The notes under the pieces: model-generated | Databases searched by the model: none | Told to the model about the DNA's origin: nothing | The model's input: only the letters and a program-made list of their open reading frames with translations | Assembly (NCBI GenBank): GCA_021018995.1 | Contig: CM037591.1 | Coordinates: 2,424,001 to 2,488,000, forward strand | DNA from: Chloranthus sessilifolius | Lineage: Eukaryota; Streptophyta; Magnoliopsida; Chloranthales; Chloranthaceae | Reading direction: 5' to 3' | DNA: 64,000 nucleotides | Shown: positions 7,758 to 43,178 of the stretch, piece after piece | Position numbering within the stretch: the stretch's first letter is position 1 | Layout of the letters: each line of letters opens with the position of its first letter | Program-made: the position numbers and the translations under genes

Positions 7758-10700
7758 GGTAGATCCTCTAGTGTGCTTCATAAGCAATACGAAAAAACAC
7801 AGATCTATGTTTTTGAGAGACTGTTTCCTGATATCATGGTAACCATCATGCTACCTTGCAAAGGATTAAACTGCTGCTATTTCCCATGTTTAACAAAAGA
7901 TTCCACGTGTCAATATTATAGATGTCTGAAACAATCTTTTCATATGATGCAACTGATGCAACCTTTATTATTGATTATAAAAGCATCAAACAGCCCTTAT
8001 AACCATCCTTATGATTGACCATGACCCTAAACGTCATGGCTACATACATAAAGCGGGTATCATTATGAAGCCCTAAGTTGGTATGATATCCACTGAAAAC
8101 GTGTCACTGTAGTCAAAACCAAGGATCTGAGTAAATCCTCTAGTCACCAATCTTGCCTTACTTCGCTCAACACTACCATCAGTTTGATGCTTCCCTGTAA
8201 AAACCCACACCCAACAGTTTTCTTATCCGATGAAAGAGATACAAGCATGGGTCAAAATATCGTTTGATACTGGTACATGCCGGATGATACATGCTGGTAT
8301 CGGAGGTCACCGGTACGGTACATTCAATGTACCGTACTGGTGCTTCTCATACATTTTTGGAATGTGCCGGATGATACATTCCAATGTATCGTCCAGAACC
8401 GGTACATATCGCCTGATACGTACCAGTATCGGAGCTGGACCCTACGTACCAGAAAACTGGTATTTTAATCCATGGGTACAAGAGTCCAAGTGTCATTCTT
8501 CTAAAAAACATCTATCTCAGCCTCCATGGTAGCTTTCCACTCAGGGTGCAGCACAGTAGGTGGAATGTTAACAACCAAAATCAGTAAGATAGGCTTAACA
8601 GGAAGGGAGAGAGAGCCAAATAAGAAACATATTGGACTAAATGATTACTAATGATACAACTGCATTCACCTTTGCGCTAGGCTATAGGCAAATCGATGGG
8701 GACATAAGGCATCGAGGCCTCTCATAGCACTTTGGGAGGAGGTTGAAGACCCACGTGCACTTGTGCGGCATGTGAGAAGACACACATGGGAGGAGAAAGT
8801 GGAGAGAGAAAAATAACTGCACTGCGCAAACTCAGATATCAAGTGCGCAAAACAGGACAGAACCCGAATTTCAGAGCCGCGAGAATTCGTGCGCGCGAAC
8901 TCGGCCGTGTCCATATGAGCGCCCACGATTTGAGTTGAAAACTTCCATTTTCGTTGCTTGTTTCAAGAGTTAGTTTAGGAGCCTAGTCTTCTATTCTTGG
9001 TAGTTTTGGGACTCCAAGTCTTCTAAATTGCCTTGTAAAGACAATCTAATTACTAGTTGATGAATGAATCAAAGGCTATTTTGCTCTAGTAAAACCTTGA
9101 GAAATTGTGAAGGGTTTCCTTTGAGAGAGCGAATCTTCAATTTCCCGAGATGGATTTGGTGCGAACAAAATAATATCCTTGGTGAAATTCCTTGGATTCT
9201 CTCTCTTATTAAATCTTATTGATTATTTTCAGGTATAGATCTTTCAATCTTTGATTAAAACCTAAAAATAAATCTTCTTCAAATTTCATGTTGTTGGAAT
9301 TAATTCTTTTAGAATTCTCAGTTTTGATTGTAATCTTTTTATTTGAATTCAACTTTTCATTTTCCATTGATTAATTTAATCCCTTCGAGCCTTAAATTCT
9401 TCAAGCACTAGAATTGTCGCTTGGTGCCTAGACTAGAGTGAAAATTGAGTTCTATCATTGGAACCCTATTTTTTAGATCGGGAAAGGACCGAATGCAGAT
9501 TGAACACTAAATCAGATTAATCCAATGGCCAGGTTTAAATTTATTAAATGTTTATGTGTTTTGGGATAATTTCGATATTTTCGTTGCTCAATTAAATCCC
9601 AATTTGATTTCAAATTGCATATTTAGGGTTTATTTGTTCATCCTGCAACACAAATCCAAAGGGTCGAGCAAAGATGGGCTAGTTGGAGAAGTAACATCAT
9701 CATAAGGAGAACCAGTAGGATCTGAAGGGGAGGTAGAAGCTAGTAGAAATGCAGAAGGGACCTCACAATGGAAATTCATTTTACTAGGCAAGGAACCAAA
9801 ATTGGGAAACCTATGATTGAGAGTTCTCAAATGGACATGTCCCAATCGAATATGCCATAAGATAATATTTATTCTTGTAGGAATTAGAGAGGATGAAAAA
9901 ACAAAAGATGATAATGATGAAAAAGGGGTCACCAAACAAAAGTGATATAAACCACCACTCTCATACCCAAGACCAATCATAATCCTCGTAGTCAAATCCT
10001 CAAAAGTACAATATGAAGGATAACACATTACCCAACATTTCATATGTTTAGTCACGCTACTAACAAATAAAAGCTTTGTAGCAAGATTATTAACAGGAAG
10101 AACCTTTGTAAGAGCAAAGGACGATGACAAATTAATGTTACCTGCACGACCAATAGGGGGTGAGACAGCCATATGCTAAGTGAACATTTATAGTAAACGA
10201 AGGATTTAATAACCATGTAGAAAAAAGGGAAGCCCTGCTAGATATATCATCCGAGACACTTGAATCAGTGATCCTAGCGGAGGAAGAATGATGGGAACAT
10301 CAACTGATATAGGGTGTATGAGAAGGGCACGAAAAAGCTCAAAGCATCTAAGCCTGTCATAGCACTTTGAGAGGAGGCTGACGACCCATGTACACCTGTG
10401 CACCATACGAGAAGACCCCACTTTGGAAAGATGCGCACATGGGGACCAAGGAAGCAAGAGTTGGAGGAAATCGCAAAACACCTGAATTTTGGGATATGAG
10501 TATACAATGATTCAGACCATTGGAATACCAGTTCCCGCTATTGGATCTTCATCAACATTTATTTCGATCGTCGGATCTTGACCATTCGTGATTCATACCG
10601 TTGGATCATTGATCGTGTGAAGAATCGTTGCTACATTCATGTTGATTTGATCGTGTGGTGGACTTTCATTTTGGTCTATTAGTTTTCATAGGTTGCGTTT

Positions 10701-35928: not shown

Positions 35929-36610
35929 GGCTCTGATCAAAACATCAAATGTATGAGGAACAATTCAAGACCCAAGATAATCTAGGATTCCCTGAAACTC
36001 TACAAGTCTATATAACTCAACAAACAAATAATTTTGAACTTCAAATGCCCAAATTGAAATAAAAAAACTAAAAAAAAAATCATTTTTCACCCACATTGCA
36101 TGGACTCTGGAGTTCTCTAATCATAAAAACCATGTCCAGATCATAAAAATTATATACGTACAACCGTAAGTCAGAAATTTGCTTTTCTAATTGGTAGAGG
36201 CATATTGGTAATCAACTGTATACACACTACTTTCTGGCAAGAGAATCTCTACAGCTCTCATCATCAACAAACCGCAATTAAACCTCAAACGAGCCTATGA
36301 GGTGCACCCTCATGCACATGCATGTCCATGTCAACAAGGTTATCACTAGTATATGGATAAGGAAGATACTGTAGTAGTAATTGCAACTTTCAAGTAAGTT
36401 ATTTGTCAAAAATCTATATATAATTGTATTAATGCCTTGTTTGACAAAACTCATGGAAATGTTTTTTTTTTTTTTTACTTTACATGGGCTTGTAAATAAA
36501 AGAACTCATGGGAAGTTTTATTTTTAAAATTTTACAATGGTTTGATTTTATTTTTTTTCAGCTGTTTGGCTACATTGTGTAAAATTATTTTCTTAAGGCA
36601 CCATTCTTCA
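35929..36610. other. 5' flank of the VAMP727 start codon
   Basis: AT-rich, with no clear TATA box near the ATG. A splice acceptor-like string (ttttgatcag) lies 4 bp upstream of it, hinting at a 5' UTR intron. Confidence 0.35.
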
Positions 36611-36969
36611 CACCATGTGAACATGTAACCTCACCCCATCTCGTCGGGCCAAAATGCATTAATCGCTAAATTAGAATATGAATTATTTTTTGTCCCAACT
36701 TTTTACAAGATGGGTCTTGAGATCATGGGCATACACTCAGATAGTTTTTTATTCTGCGTGGTACAAATCCCAAACAGTAACTCTAAATTTTTGAGACATA
36801 CATCAAGCTCAAATACAAATCATGAGTCATTTTTTGGAATGGGTGCCACATGAAATAAAAAAACCGATATACCCATGATCTCAAGATGCATCATCTGGAA
36901 GATTGGGATAAAAAACAATCTCCTTTGTCAGATTCAAAGCAGTCAATGCATGTTGGTCGAAGGAGATGG
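36611..36969. repeat. left part of foldback MITE interrupted by the hAT element
   Basis: The arm at about 36625-36650 (GTAACCTCACCCCATCTC) is matched, inverted, by sequence across the hAT site: GGAGATGGGGCGAGGT at 36962-36977, continuing after the hAT at 42449 (TACGATTTTACAG). The interior has the family core motifs (gatcttgagatcatggg ... ggaagattgggataaaaaac). It predates the hAT insertion. Confidence 0.7.
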
Positions 36970-38091
36970 GGCGAGGTCAGGGGCGGACGCACGTGAAGAG
37001 GGGGGGGTCCCGGGACCCCCCAAACTTTTTTTTTCTTAAAAAAACATTAGATTTGAATTTTAATTGGTTTCTCTAAAGACCCCCCCAATATTGATAACCC
37101 CCCCCCCCATTTTATAACCTTTAGCTTTAAAAGTTTTAAAACCACTCTCTCTCTCTAAAAAATACCCTAACCCGTAGCCCCTTCAGACTTCATCAGTTCA
37201 TCCAACTCTCTACTCTCAGCGGCAGCCGCAGGCCGGAGCAGCATTCGCCGGCGACAGCCCAGCCAGATTCAACCAGGTAATCTTCTTCTTCTTCTTCATC
37301 TTCATCTGTCTCTCTCTTCTTCCTCATCTAGTCATCTGCCTCCATCTCTCTCTCTTCTTCTTCTTCTCCATCTGTCTCTATTAGCAAGCTTAATAGCTTT
37401 GGTGAAAAAAGGTGGTTTTTTTTTAATGGTTTTAAATATCAGCCATATTCAATATTTTTCGGCGGATATGTATTAGATTCGGCCCCATCTGGCCATCTGA
37501 TATCATGTTCACTCTCTAGTCTCTATGTCTTTCTCTTCTTCTTCATCTAATCATCTTTTCCTCTCTCTTTCCCCTCTCCTTGATTCGCCGACGGCAACCA
37601 TCCCCTGATCCAGTGATCCCCACATACCGACACACGGCCACACGGCCCACACCAGGCGGCGTCAATGGTTTAAGATGTGAGTGATCCGAACCATCAAAGT
37701 GATAGATCATAGGTTGAACTGCAAAATGCCCAAAAATGGTGTTTTAGAGAGATTTAGATCATCTAATCTATGGACTATAATATCAACTATTGTTTTTTGT
37801 TTTAAAGAATGATATTAAGTTCGTCAATCGGATGGTTCACATCCACTTATGGGCATGTTTCATTGGGCTTAGACCTATTCCAATGATAGATTGCCACGTG
37901 GAGTCTTGGACTATTTATATTGATAGTAGATGAGTGCTACATGATATAATGATAAATTACGCTTGATTGGTGTGAGATAAAAAATCTAAGTTTAATTGTG
38001 TAAGATCATTTAAACACCAATTGGTGTTTAAAGTCGGTTTGGAGCCATTTTTTTTAAATGGTTAATGTCACGATATATTATAATTTTGGTA

Positions 38092-38503
38092 CGGCCGACG
38101 TGATTTGGGAGGGCGCCTACGGTTGAAACCGACTGAAGTCTGTGGACAGCTTGGATTCATATGATGGAGATCATTTTTCATCCCAATCTACCACAGGGTG
38201 GTTGTTGAGACCATAAGTGTACCATCAAATGGTCAACTTTTGATTCCATGTGGCATTGATCTTTAAAAATTGGCCCTAAAATCACTTACCGCATCACGCG
38301 CAAACGAGATTTTAGGGCTTTTTCTTTTTTCAAATATGTGCCCTGTGGAATAAAAAGCAGACCTTCTTATGGTCTCAAAATCTAATCGGGTGGAAGATTA
38401 GGATGAAAAATGATCTCTATCATATGAATCCAAGCAGTCCACAGGTTTCAGTGGGTTTCAATCATAGGTGTCCTCAAAAATCACGTAAGCGCGAACAGAG
38501 GTA
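38092..38503. repeat. Mutator-like foldback MITE nested in the hAT leader
   Basis: Long inverted arms: ACGTGATTTGGGAGGGCGCC on the left matches the reverse complement of the right end, ACGTGATTTTTGAGGACACC. The arms continue through the family core (gatggagatcatttttcatccc / ggatgaaaaatgatctctatc). It lies in the predicted 5' UTR intron of the transposon. Confidence 0.75.
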
Positions 38504-39764
38504 CCCTTATAATTTAGAAAGGCCGAATTTATAACTAGCTGTTATGCCTCATTATAAATCATTATTTTTCGTTATAATGTATCAGAAAAAATCATGTTAT
38601 AATGGCTTAATAGCAATTTTTGACATGCGTCTTATTTTACATGTTAAATAACTTAAATAAGAGGCCGGGGATATGGGTTAGAATGCATGGTGGATCCATG
38701 CATTCAAATTAGGTGGGGTCCACGTGACAGGCCCACCGCCCACAGCCCACTGTCTCCACGTGACAGGCCCACGCCCATCAGTTCATCAGCCACAACCACA
38801 CCCCCTAAACTCTAAATCTCTCTCTCTTTCTCTCTCTTATTCTCAAATCTCAATACTCAATCCCTAAGGACCAACCCTAACTATTTATTTCAATTTTTTT
38901 CAGGATTTTAGTTGGATTTGTTGATCAAGCACTCTGTGCGTGGTTCGGATTTGTCGAAGCTCGCATTTCGTCCAATCACGCTAGATTGGAGTCTTGGTGC
39001 CTTGGAAGTAAAATTAATTGTTTAATTTAAATTTGATTTAATTTTATGTTAATGAGTTAAAAATATAGTGATTTTGATTTTTGAATGTGATATATGAAAT
39101 GTCAAATTTTTATTGGTATGAAAATGTGGAAATCCCTAAAGGCTAAAGCCCTAATTTTTTAGATTGAATAATTTTTTATTGGTTCAAAGCACATGATGGA
39201 TGGTAGTTTTTTGCTCAATTTTTGGATGGTAGTTTTTTACTCAAATTTTCACATGATAAGTATTTAGATCATAGTCTTTAAATTGCAGTTACAATACTCA
39301 TGACGATACTATGTTTAGATGTGCCCAAAAATTGACCCTTAACAATTTGATGATGATAGATTTCCACTTGCTTGTGCACCTGTTAAGTATCTAATGCAAA
39401 AATTAAGGCACCTGTTGAGTATCTAATGCATGGGGTTGGCGAAGATCGGATTGAAATGGGATATATCATAGCTGGTTGGTTTTTTGCACTTTTAGGCTTT
39501 TAAATATATGGTACAAGTTTGATTTTTTTATTTTTATTTATTTATTTATGCAATCTTGGGATAAATCTGATCTAGGCGACGTATTTTTTTATATGAAACA
39601 TTTATTAGATATTGCTTGAGATTTATTTTAAATATTTACTCGAGATTATTTGTATTTAAACTATTTTCTAATACACTCATGATATTTATTTTCGTTAGGT
39701 TATATTCTTCCTTCTTGACCGTTGGAGCAGTTATGCATAGATACTTTAAAAGAAAGGTGACATC

Positions 39765-42254
39765 ATGCCTCCTATCGTAGAAAATGATGAACATGAACAA
39801 ACCCAACTTGGCTCAAAGCGAAGTCATGTAGAAAATGATGACGTGTCTACTCGTTTAAAAAATGAACTTGAGCAAGGGGGTCCTAGCTCAAAACGGACTT
39901 ATATAGAAAATGATGATACATCTACTGCCTTAGAAAATGATGAGTATGAACAAGTCCAATCTAGCTCAAAGCGAAGTCATGTAGAGTTTGATTTAGCAAA
40001 TCTTTCAGCAGATTCCGGATTACGTATTCCAATTTCAATGTACCATCCTAATGTTCAAGAATTAGTTCGAAGAGCATATTTGCAAAAAGGTCCATGCCAG
40101 CCTCATAATCACACATTTTTTCAGAGAAAAATATCAGGAAAACCACGACGATTTCAACCCAAGTGGTTTAAGATGTATGGAAGTTGGTTAGAATATAGCA
40201 TATCAAAGGAAAAAGCATTTTGCTTATGTTGCTATCTTTTTAGACCAACTATAACAACAGGGGTGCAAGGGGGTACTGAATGTTTTACGGTTGAAGGGTT
40301 TGACAATTGGAAGAAGCCGGATAAATTTGCGACTCATGTTGGAGGGCCCAATAGTGCTCACAACCTAGCTCATCAGAAGTGTCAAAATTTGTTGAATCAA
40401 AATCAACACATTAAGACATTTTTTTCTAAGCAAGATGATAAAGACACAAGGGAATATAGAATCCGTTTGACGGCTTCAGTAGACTGCGTTCGATATCTTC
40501 TTCGTCAAGGATTACCTTTTCGTGGGCACAATGAATCAGATGTTTCAAGCAATCAAGGAAACTTTCGTGTACTCCTACAATTTCTAGCTGATCATAATGA
40601 AGAAATTAGAATTGTCGCATTAAATAATGCTCCTGGTCATCTCAAAATGATTGCACCTCATATCCAGAAAGATATTGTAAGTGCAATTGCGAGTGAAGTC
40701 ACAAAAACTATCATTGAGGATCTTGGAGATGCCGTATTTGCTATTTTGATTGATGAATCTTGTGATATATCTATTAAAGAGCAAACGGCCGTTGTTTTAC
40801 GCTATGTAGATAAGAGGGGATGTGTAATTGAGCGATTCTTTGGAATAGTACATGTTACGGAAACCACCGCTGTAGCATTGAAGGATGCAATTGATGCATT
40901 ATTTGCCAAACATGGATTGAGTATAAAGAAATTGCGCGGACAAGGTTATGACAAGAATATGAAAGGTCAGTATAATGGACTTAAGACGCTCATAATGAAG
41001 GAGAATGAATATGCCTATTATATTCATTGTTTTGCTCATCAACTTCAATTGGCACTTGTTGGAGTTACAAAACGTAACATTGAAATCGGGACACTCTTTA
41101 GTGTGGTTTCTGCTGTGGTTAATATTGTTGGAGCATCTACCAAATGTCGTGATATTCTTCGAAATAATCGAACTGCTACAGTCATTAATGCAATTGAGAG
41201 TGGGGACCTTTCAACTGGGCAGGGTTTGAATCAGGAGACTACGTTAATACGAGCCAGTGATACACGTTGGGGCTCACACTATAAGTCATTGGTAAGCATT
41301 AGAGTCTTGTTCTCTTCTGTGATTGATGTACTTGGAATTGTCCAAGAAGATAGCTCAAATTATGATCAAAGAGCTGCAGCAAGGGGCTTAATAATCTCAA
41401 TGTGCTCTTTTGAGTTTGTATTCACCTTTCATATAATAGAAAAAATATTGGGAATCACAGGTGATCTATCAAAGGCATTACAAAAGCAACAACAAGATAT
41501 TGTGAATGCCATAGATCTGGTTAAAGTTGCTAAGGTGAGATTGCAACTTATGAGAGACGTCGGATGGGATTCTATCATCAAAGAAGTATCTTTATTTTGC
41601 AATAAACATAAAATCAGTGTCCCTAACATGAATGATAAGTATGAAGAACCAGGGCGGCCGCGACGTAGAGCTGAAGAAATAACCTATTTACATCATTATT
41701 GTGTTGAATTATTTTATGTTGTTATTGATCAACAACTACAAGAGCTTAACAACCGTTTCGATGAAGTGAATACCGAATTACTTCTTTGTATGGCATGCCT
41801 AGATCCAAGCAATTCATTCTCAGCTTTTGACAAGGAAAAATTAGTTTGGCTTGCTGAATTTTATCCGGTTGAATTTTCTGCAATGTCTCTCGCTTTTCTT
41901 GATAATCAACTTGCGACTTACATTCTTGATGTACGCTCTAAAAGTGAGTTCTCGAAGGTGGATGGGATTAGTGGGCTTGCTCAGAAAATGGTTGAAAAGA
42001 AAAAAGATGTTTTATATTCACAAGTTTACTTGCTCATAAAATTAGCATTAACCCTACCTGTTGCCACTGCTACTGTTGAGAGGGCATTTTCTGCTATGCA
42101 TATTATAAAGAATAGACTTCGAAACCGAATGACAGATGAGTGGATGAATGATTGTTTGATCACATACATTGAGAGAGATATTTTTGATAGTATCGAAAAT
42201 GAGAAAATTCTCCAACGCTTTCAGAAGATGAAACCTCGTCGAGAAAAATTGTAA
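39765..42254 (+). CDS. hAT transposase, TTF-zinc-finger/DUF4371/hAT-dimerisation type (ZMYM1-like)
   Basis: Transposase of the plant hAT group annotated as 'zinc finger MYM-type protein 1-like'. The frame is open for 829 codons. Residues 1-76 hold three imperfect repeats ending KRSHVE, KRTYIE, KRSHVE. A TTF-type zinc finger region lies at about 130-215 (QPKWFKMYGSWLEYS, FCLCCYLFRP). The DUF4371/RNase-H-like core spans about 216-520 with ILIDESCDIS (first acidic site), RGQGYDKNMKG (second Asp, 396), HCFAHQLQLAL (Cys/His pair) and DTRWGSHYKSL (Trp502). The hAT C-terminal dimerisation region is about 745-810 (LPVATATVERAFSAMHIIKN), containing the third acidic residue. Length is normal for the family. 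The odd point is the second catalytic block, which is shorter than the usual GQGYDGASNM. The start ATG follows a possible leader splice acceptor and keeps the whole repeat array; an in-frame upstream start was not seen. Confidence 0.93.
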   Translation: MPPIVENDEHEQTQLGSKRSHVENDDVSTRLKNELEQGGPSSKRTYIENDDTSTALENDEYEQVQSSSKRSHVEFDLANLSADSGLRIPISMYHPNVQELVRRAYLQKGPCQPHNHTFFQRKISGKPRRFQPKWFKMYGSWLEYSISKEKAFCLCCYLFRPTITTGVQGGTECFTVEGFDNWKKPDKFATHVGGPNSAHNLAHQKCQNLLNQNQHIKTFFSKQDDKDTREYRIRLTASVDCVRYLLRQGLPFRGHNESDVSSNQGNFRVLLQFLADHNEEIRIVALNNAPGHLKMIAPHIQKDIVSAIASEVTKTIIEDLGDAVFAILIDESCDISIKEQTAVVLRYVDKRGCVIERFFGIVHVTETTAVALKDAIDALFAKHGLSIKKLRGQGYDKNMKGQYNGLKTLIMKENEYAYYIHCFAHQLQLALVGVTKRNIEIGTLFSVVSAVVNIVGASTKCRDILRNNRTATVINAIESGDLSTGQGLNQETTLIRASDTRWGSHYKSLVSIRVLFSSVIDVLGIVQEDSSNYDQRAAARGLIISMCSFEFVFTFHIIEKILGITGDLSKALQKQQQDIVNAIDLVKVAKVRLQLMRDVGWDSIIKEVSLFCNKHKISVPNMNDKYEEPGRPRRRAEEITYLHHYCVELFYVVIDQQLQELNNRFDEVNTELLLCMACLDPSNSFSAFDKEKLVWLAEFYPVEFSAMSLAFLDNQLATYILDVRSKSEFSKVDGISGLAQKMVEKKKDVLYSQVYLLIKLALTLPVATATVERAFSAMHIIKNRLRNRMTDEWMNDCLITYIERDIFDSIENEKILQRFQKMKPRREKL

Positions 42255-42745
42255 TTTTTAAAAGATGTCTTTATTATAATAGTAGAATGACTTTTTGGAG
42301 AGATGTTTGCCTTTTTTTATATTTTATGATTTTAAGAGGAAATTTTTTATTTATTCTCTATTTAAATATGAGGTAAAAAATTTTAAATAATATATATCGA
42401 TTACGGCCCCCCCATCAAGTAAATCCTGCGTTCGCCCCTGGGCGAGGTTACGATTTTACAGTGCAAATAAATAGTACGATTATGAGGTGAGGTTGCATCT
42501 AAACCGTCTGATATGAAGGCCATGATCTACAGATCAACGACGCAAAAGAGTGGTGCAAAACTCAATCTCTATCATATGATTCAATGCAATCAACTGTTGA
42601 ATCGGATAATGGCTTTGGAGTGCATTGAGTCATATGATAAAGATTATGCTTGGTACCAATCTTTTCACTTATGATCTTTAGATCATGGCCTTCAAATTAA
42701 CTGGCTTAGATGGTTGGGTTACATTTATTGGCGTCGTTGTTTATG

Positions 42746-43178
42746 GGTACCTCTATTCGCGTCCATGCGTTCTCTGAAAGCGCCCACGTCCCAGACCCCT
42801 TGAAGACTATTGATTGCTTTAGATCAGATGAGGGTGATTGTTTTTCACCCCGATCGTCCATAGAATGGATCTTAAGATCATGTAACACCTATCGGATTGA
42901 CGGCAGGATCAGATGTCCCTGTCCCCAAAATATGGCCCTAAAGTCACATTTGAGCATGATGTGTGCTATATGATTGAAGAGTCATATTTTGGGTATGGGT
43001 GATACATGAAATCAAAAATTGACCGTTAAATTGATGCACCATGAACCCAAGATCTATTTTTTGGAAGATCTTTGTTAAAAAAGATCTCCATCATCTGATC
43101 CAAAGAAATCAACGTTTTTTTCAAGGGTCTGAGATGTAGGCGCTTTAAGAGAACGCGTGGGCGTGAAGAAAGAGGTAT
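42746..43178. mobile_element. foldback MITE, second TIR subfamily
   Basis: The left arm GGTACCTCTATTCGCGTCCA ... GTTCTCTGAAAGCGCC is matched inverted at the right end (AATACCTCTTTCTTCACGCC ... GTTCTCTTAAAGCGCC). The interior shares the core motifs of the 13523 element although the termini differ. Confidence 0.72.

Follow-up and report, generated by a model that had tools for sequence, protein, structure and literature searches.

A Tip100-type hAT transposon of Chloranthus sessilifolius that has kept its ends and probably lost its transposase

Tip100 of Ipomoea purpurea carries the terminal inverted repeat (TIR) CAGGGGCGGAG and is flanked by target-site duplications (TSDs) of 8 bp (PMC12511174), within a superfamily, hAT, whose TIRs measure 10-25 bp (PMC3942097). 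BuT2, a member of the Tip group, carries DUF4371 together with a hAT dimerisation domain (PMC3942097), and DUF4371 is described as belonging to hAT transposases that are RNase H-like and bear a ZnF_TTF at the N-terminus (PMC3985635); these and the other published accounts are cited from excerpts. Here we analyze a hAT element and its transposase gene in a window of 64,000 nucleotides of Chloranthus sessilifolius (contig CM037591.1, positions 2,424,001 to 2,488,000; coordinates below are those of the window), which a preliminary description of this stretch had presented as complete, possibly recently active and equipped with an intact 829-codon transposase. We consider it likely, with good confidence, that the element is a class II cut-and-paste hAT transposon of the Tip100 kind that died recently, is still complete in cis and sits in a high-copy repeat. 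To judge from its coding sequence, the window copy probably makes no working transposase any more.

The Tip100-kind label is drawn from the Pfam domains of the transposase, the Tip100-like TIR and the occurrence of DUF4371 in BuT2, and on these grounds the element is classed in the hAT superfamily. The TIRs of both elements start CAGGGGCGGA, the left end of the window copy sharing the first 10/11 bases with CAGGGGCGGAG and the right end the first 8. Both elements contain one large frame, of 808 aa in Tip100 and 829 in the window copy, a likeness that is taken from the description in PMC12511174. They differ in length (3.8 kb in Tip100 against 5.46 kb), and the window copy has a long leader with a nested insert, N-terminal repeats and lesions.

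Ends, insertion site and family size

The TIR pair of the window copy is identical at 14 of 16 positions, in the length range of hAT TIRs, and is bounded on both sides by the same perfect 8-bp sequence, GGCGAGGT. Genome-wide searches covered the 2.17-Gb assembly (32 contigs) and, for DNA and protein alike, scored the best candidates only, so that the counts from these searches are lower bounds. When both flanks are joined with one TSD, the resulting 292-bp query aligns almost end to end, at 93-96% identity, with a high-copy repeat at 40 places (the best 40 of 3,443 candidates), and all eight repeat copies that were fetched hold one GGCGAGGT between homologous neighbors. These empty sites place the insertion point to the exact base, identify the target as a dispersed repeat and rule out a chance pairing of TIRs and TSD. 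The complete element proposed at 36970..42448, with its perfect 8-bp duplication, is therefore confirmed. In mechanistic terms, a transposase of a working lineage would have cut an ancestor of the window copy out through an aspartate-aspartate-glutamate (DDE) reaction, and the excised copy would have been joined to an 8-bp staggered target, the filling of the gaps giving the TSD.

The right end of the family was placed at 33 loci, some by extrapolation. Eight of these, the window copy included, combine a perfect 8-bp TSD with a left end like that of the window copy, and five more have a TSD matching at 7 of 8 positions. A genome-wide count of the 20-bp right end gives 280 occurrences at up to two mismatches, as compared with zero for the reversed control pattern. 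With 31 gene-bearing copies aligned, this makes a well-bounded Tip100-type family in a large plant genome, whose sister copies illustrate the decay of elements of this kind and the possible repair of breaks within them.

Private lesions in the transposase gene

The only open reading frame of at least 100 residues within 36500-43000 is the 829-codon frame of the transposase. Pfam recognizes in it DUF4371 and, at 28.3 bits against a cut-off of 21.4, the hAT dimerisation domain PF05699 (Dimer_Tnp_hAT), which bears out the core and dimerisation motifs of the preliminary description; of the zinc finger that it also named, a CxxC in a plausible place is all that is found, and Pfam lends no support. 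The layout of DDE residues and CXXH resembles that of Hermes and Kat1 (PMC4763223). D330 and D396 lie 66 residues apart and D396 lies 29 from H425, as compared with 67 (D310 to D377) and 28 (D377 to H405) in Kat1, and from this motif and spacing D396 is probably the second catalytic Asp.

We aligned the gene in 31 copies from the same genome, comparing the window copy (L001) with the 30 others. Of 34 family copies that were fetched, duplicates aside, three (L035-L037) were excluded because the 5' part of the gene is missing, and L006-L008 (duplicates of L009-L011) and L044 (a duplicate of L012) were left unused. Only the window copy and L004 read without interruption over the compared stretch, the other 29 of the 31 having premature stops, frameshifts or truncations. 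The window copy nevertheless carries three indels, of 1, 3 and 6 bp, that are present in none of the 30 others, and the transposase can therefore not be called intact. The smallest, loss of a T at 39757/39758, throws the native ATG at 39733 out of frame, such that the frame from this ATG ends after 15 codons; L004 reads MHRYFKRKVDIMPP in one frame, and frames of a sister family (below) start similarly, with MDKFLKRKSDQLPP. As the relatives begin upstream, at the ATG corresponding to 39733, the 829 codons are indeed open, from 39765 to 42254, and are not the native frame of the family. The 6-bp loss falls directly after D396 and is accompanied by a change of the neighboring Ser to Lys (Table 1); at up to two mismatches this lesion pattern occurs once genome-wide, in the window itself. 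A further change on the branch of the window copy, R333C, is not unique, since two of the 30 other copies also have TGT. L004, for its part, is damaged too, having lost 18 bp in frame and carrying an altered left TIR (CAAGGGC). With the two residues beside D396 kept, its distance from the second Asp to the CXXH His is 31 residues, against 28 in Kat1 (PMC4763223).

These small private deletions, one of them beside the probable active site, indicate that the window copy is probably already dead. Its frame would still be open through youth and not through proven function, with the upstream start and two residues beside D396 gone. An open frame, a perfect TSD and matching ends are thus insufficient grounds for calling a transposon intact; small lesions in frame and in the start region stay hidden in the sequence of one copy and come to light once thirty relatives within the genome are set beside it.

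Age, selection and the chance of further movement

Changes were counted by parsimony on a tree of 746 codons and set against neutrality under an identical spectrum; this count was preferred to one of singletons, which misses private changes masked by parallel C>T changes. Across all 31 copies, terminal branches hold 1515 nonsynonymous (N) and 493 synonymous (S) changes and 124 new stops (omega, the ratio of the two classes relative to neutrality, ~1.1), and internal branches 225 N and 118 S (omega ~0.68; Fisher P 0.00018 against terminal). L005 is truncated, and its gaps cause changes of L002 to be assigned to an internal branch; omitting it gives 1519 N : 494 S and 200 N : 114 S, an omega of 1.1 on terminal against 0.63 on internal branches (P 0.000017), and leaves the window copy unchanged; even so, parallel C>T changes may keep the internal value too high. 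The branch of the window copy has 18 N : 6 S, or 16 N : 6 S when S397N and S397R, one event at the 6-bp deletion, are both left out, as compared with a neutral N/S of 2.79. Two thirds of the terminal changes (1,431/2,149) are G>A or C>T, a pattern expected of methylated DNA, as are 15 of the 25 in the window copy. After insertion the copy would thus probably have been methylated and would have decayed without detectable selection.

The terminal branch of the window copy (0.0106, or 1.06%) is the second shortest of the 31, that of L004 being 0.0081 (0.81%) and those of the other 29 copies ranging from 0.0137 to 0.0793. The chance that a frame remains free of stops is 0.23 after the 25 changes of the window copy, and 0.37 after the 17 of L004, so that youth can explain the open frame and selection keeping it open need not be invoked. 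The possibility that the host has kept the gene for a cellular role can be considered here, as the frame is stop-free and the longest of four in the window with at least 150 residues. Matching TIRs and a TSD flank the gene, however, its location is a high-copy repeat, purifying selection is not seen in the 18 N : 6 S of its branch, and a lesion adjoins the probable active site. We reject domestication, which seems scarcely conceivable, on the neutral pattern and the matching ends.

Substitution rates in plants lie at about 2e-9 to 1.3e-8 per site per year, under which 1.06% would correspond very roughly to 1-5 million years. L004 comes nearest among the aligned copies, at 2.1% divergence over 2,436 sites of the 3' half, followed by L003 at 3.1%. 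A lack of other copies at over 95% identity, which the preliminary description had named as a refutation of its view, is not what is seen, since L004 is 97.9% identical (3' half) and full-length matches to the element reach 95%. Elsewhere in the genome, 3' ends reach 97% identity to that of the window copy, and among these scored matches (best 40 of 542 candidates) there is no near-identical partner copy. The family was thus still active in the not too distant past; recent activity of this copy in any strong sense does not fit a nearest aligned relative 2.1% away, scored 3' ends of at most 97% and neutral changes.

We regard as quite improbable the view first taken of this locus, that of a recently moved, autonomous element whose transposase works. 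It would account for the open frame, the perfect TSD, the whole ends, the short terminal branch and the presumed catalytic acids, which are kept, yet it has to contend with the private 6-bp loss beside D396, the private frameshift in the native start, the neutral substitution pattern and the distance to all aligned copies and scored 3' ends. Several points nonetheless weigh against our reading of a dead enzyme. D330, D396 and E772, the presumed catalytic acids, and the CXXH motif are all retained, so transposase activity may persist, and position 39765 may serve as the start of the 829-codon frame. That D396 is catalytic is read from motif and spacing, the fold model of the window protein (from a 10-sequence alignment) having a predicted local distance difference test score (pLDDT) of 36.8, too low to use, and the excerpt of PMC4763223 is inconsistent on the second Asp of Kat1 (D377 or D328). 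Omega for the window copy is 1.08 with an interval of 0.41-3.3, so wide that selection is not shown and weak constraint is possible. Finally, the deletions are known from one assembly, and the 1-bp loss especially could be an assembly error. A search of solved structures with the transposase sequence gave no match at E up to 1.

A protein search of the genome returned three stop-free, near-full-length matches among the best 55 of 2,049 candidates, namely the window copy, L004 and L038. The last belongs to a sister family (L038-L042) with 63% protein identity to the window transposase, the same two Pfam domains and an 8-bp TSD in four of five copies, which differs in its TIR, CAGTG[G/A]CGTAGCCACG, and in its length of ~4.5 kb. 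L038 itself (G000:C6:4823500-4832500), to which L039-L042 are 95-96% identical, has a stop-free 787-aa frame starting MDKFLKRK, with DESRD and GYDGVSNM, as well as TIRs and a perfect 8-bp TSD. As this frame is the more complete, the title of youngest autonomous candidate may apply to the window copy within the window, though not across the genome. The genome, which yields 108 WRKY-domain matches where 14 control genomes yield none and is by this mark that of a plant, also holds many DUF4371 proteins, as opposed to the absence in plants described in the excerpt of PMC3985635.

With the DNA ends of the window copy whole, its mobilization in trans by an intact relative is conceivable in principle. 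That the window copy is of this kind, dead in its enzyme, still mobilized and perhaps polymorphic today, strikes us as unlikely. Complete ends and a TSD would suit it, 280 right ends set against 31 aligned gene-bearing copies would fit putative trans-mobilized derivatives, and the sister family offers a full frame, although its TIRs differ. Against this, the scored matches include no near-identical sister copy, and none of the 31 aligned copies has an intact transposase of the same subfamily, L004 being uninterrupted but damaged. We therefore retain the reading of a recently dead, cis-complete element, the features of which are collected in Table 1.

Table 1. Features of the element and its insertion site (window coordinates)
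Feature	Position	Strand	Remarks
Left target-site duplication GGCGAGGT	36970..36977	.	Single copy at 8/8 fetched empty sites
Complete hAT (Tip100-type) element	36978..42440	+	5,463 bp
Left TIR CAGGGGCGGACGCACG	36978..36993	+	Compared with Tip100 TIR CAGGGGCGGAG
Hypervariable G+C-rich leader stretch	37208..37266	+	Differs in each of five closest copies
Nested leader sequence, ~1.07 kb	37652..38725	+	In L001-L005, absent from L009, L011, L017; ends approximate, by eye
Long fold-back in nested sequence	38098..38486	.	97-nt arms 38098-38194 / 38390-38486, 87% complementary
Private patch	38755..38770	+	Copy of sequence 36 bp upstream in place of ~50 bp kept by L002-L005
Native start ATG (MHRYFKRKV...)	39733..39780	+	Frame lost after 9 codons; stop 39778-39780
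829-codon open frame, transposase	39765..42254	+	
Three in-frame repeats, N-terminus	39769..39992	+	~25-26 codons each
Private 3-bp deletion site, N-terminus	39861..39862	+	
DUF4371 (PF14291), residues 173-405	40281..40979	+	Pfam, E 1.7e-78, 264.2 bits (cut-off 32.1)
Probable first catalytic Asp motif, D330	40752..40763	+	With R333C (DESRD to DESCD); D330 role inferred
Probable second catalytic Asp, D396	40950..40955	+	Then private 6-bp deletion (GYDGASNM to GYDKNM)
CXXH motif, C422-H425	41028..41039	+	Compared with Kat1/Hermes CXXH (PMC4763223, excerpt)
hAT C-terminal dimerisation domain (PF05699), residues 746-805	42000..42179	+	E 1.6e-06; includes E772
Right TIR CAGGGGCGAACGCAGG (reverse strand)	42425..42440	-	
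Right target-site duplication GGCGAGGT	42441..42448	.	

Leader patches and further observations

In the leader, short replaced patches set the five closest copies apart, and two of the 14 patches tested exceed shuffles in their match to local sequence. In L004, about 45 bp (element position ~1172-1232) are occupied by copied local sequence, comprising a 28-nt direct copy with its source 94 bp downstream and a 30-nt inverted copy with its source 117 bp upstream, the two being joined via a shared AAAAT. Inside this patch a template match of 26 nt was found, with none of 60 shuffles as good and none above 12 nt. The patch of the window copy has a template match of 8 nt, equaled by 2 of 60 shuffles, which makes it the weaker scar. 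That all leader patches are locally templated was rejected, because 12 of the 14 tested were no better than shuffled controls.

A tentative explanation, which we hold to be possible though rather doubtful, is that template switches have rewritten the leader repeatedly while breaks in the element, or the excision gap, were under repair, so that the copies record repair and sisters at 2-3% divergence differ in short replaced patches; the 12 of 14 patches that lack a local template argue against it. Were it true, the leader would be a hotspot of interrupted repair, and its scars could be used to trace the genealogy of copies. Template switching in repair is known for animal DNA transposons (PMC8277862) and filler DNA for maize Ds (PMC3260210), and repair scars in the leader would be unexpected without being a new kind of event. 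The maize Ac/Ds system resembles this family further in being hAT and in having decaying gene-bearing copies amid many non-autonomous ones (PMC3260210). It differs in its TIR and group, and the filler patches of this family are short interruptions in copies that are full-length in other respects.

Variation in the G+C-rich stretch at 37208-37266, seen also in L002-L005, L010, L012 and L016, far exceeds the 2-3% by which the neighboring sequence diverges. Of the patch in L012, a 31-nt segment occurs genome-wide in L012 only, at up to two mismatches, and some of the variation may simply reflect decay of CpG-rich DNA, as judged by eye in L010 and L016. L010, L012, L013 and L016 have other insertions in the leader, roughly 0.6-0.7 kb in size. 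Part of the repeat that flanks the element (36830-36977 and 42448-42600) resembles, as an inverted repeat, a fold-back arm inside it.

The N-terminal repeats (39769-39992) contain SKR-like basic motifs. Several other copies have an extra 60 bp at these repeats, and L038 seemingly has one unit. Elsewhere in the window, on the minus strand at 9630-10172, a weak match to GAG-pre-integrase (22.8 bits, cut-off 28.4) probably marks a decayed Copia-type remnant.

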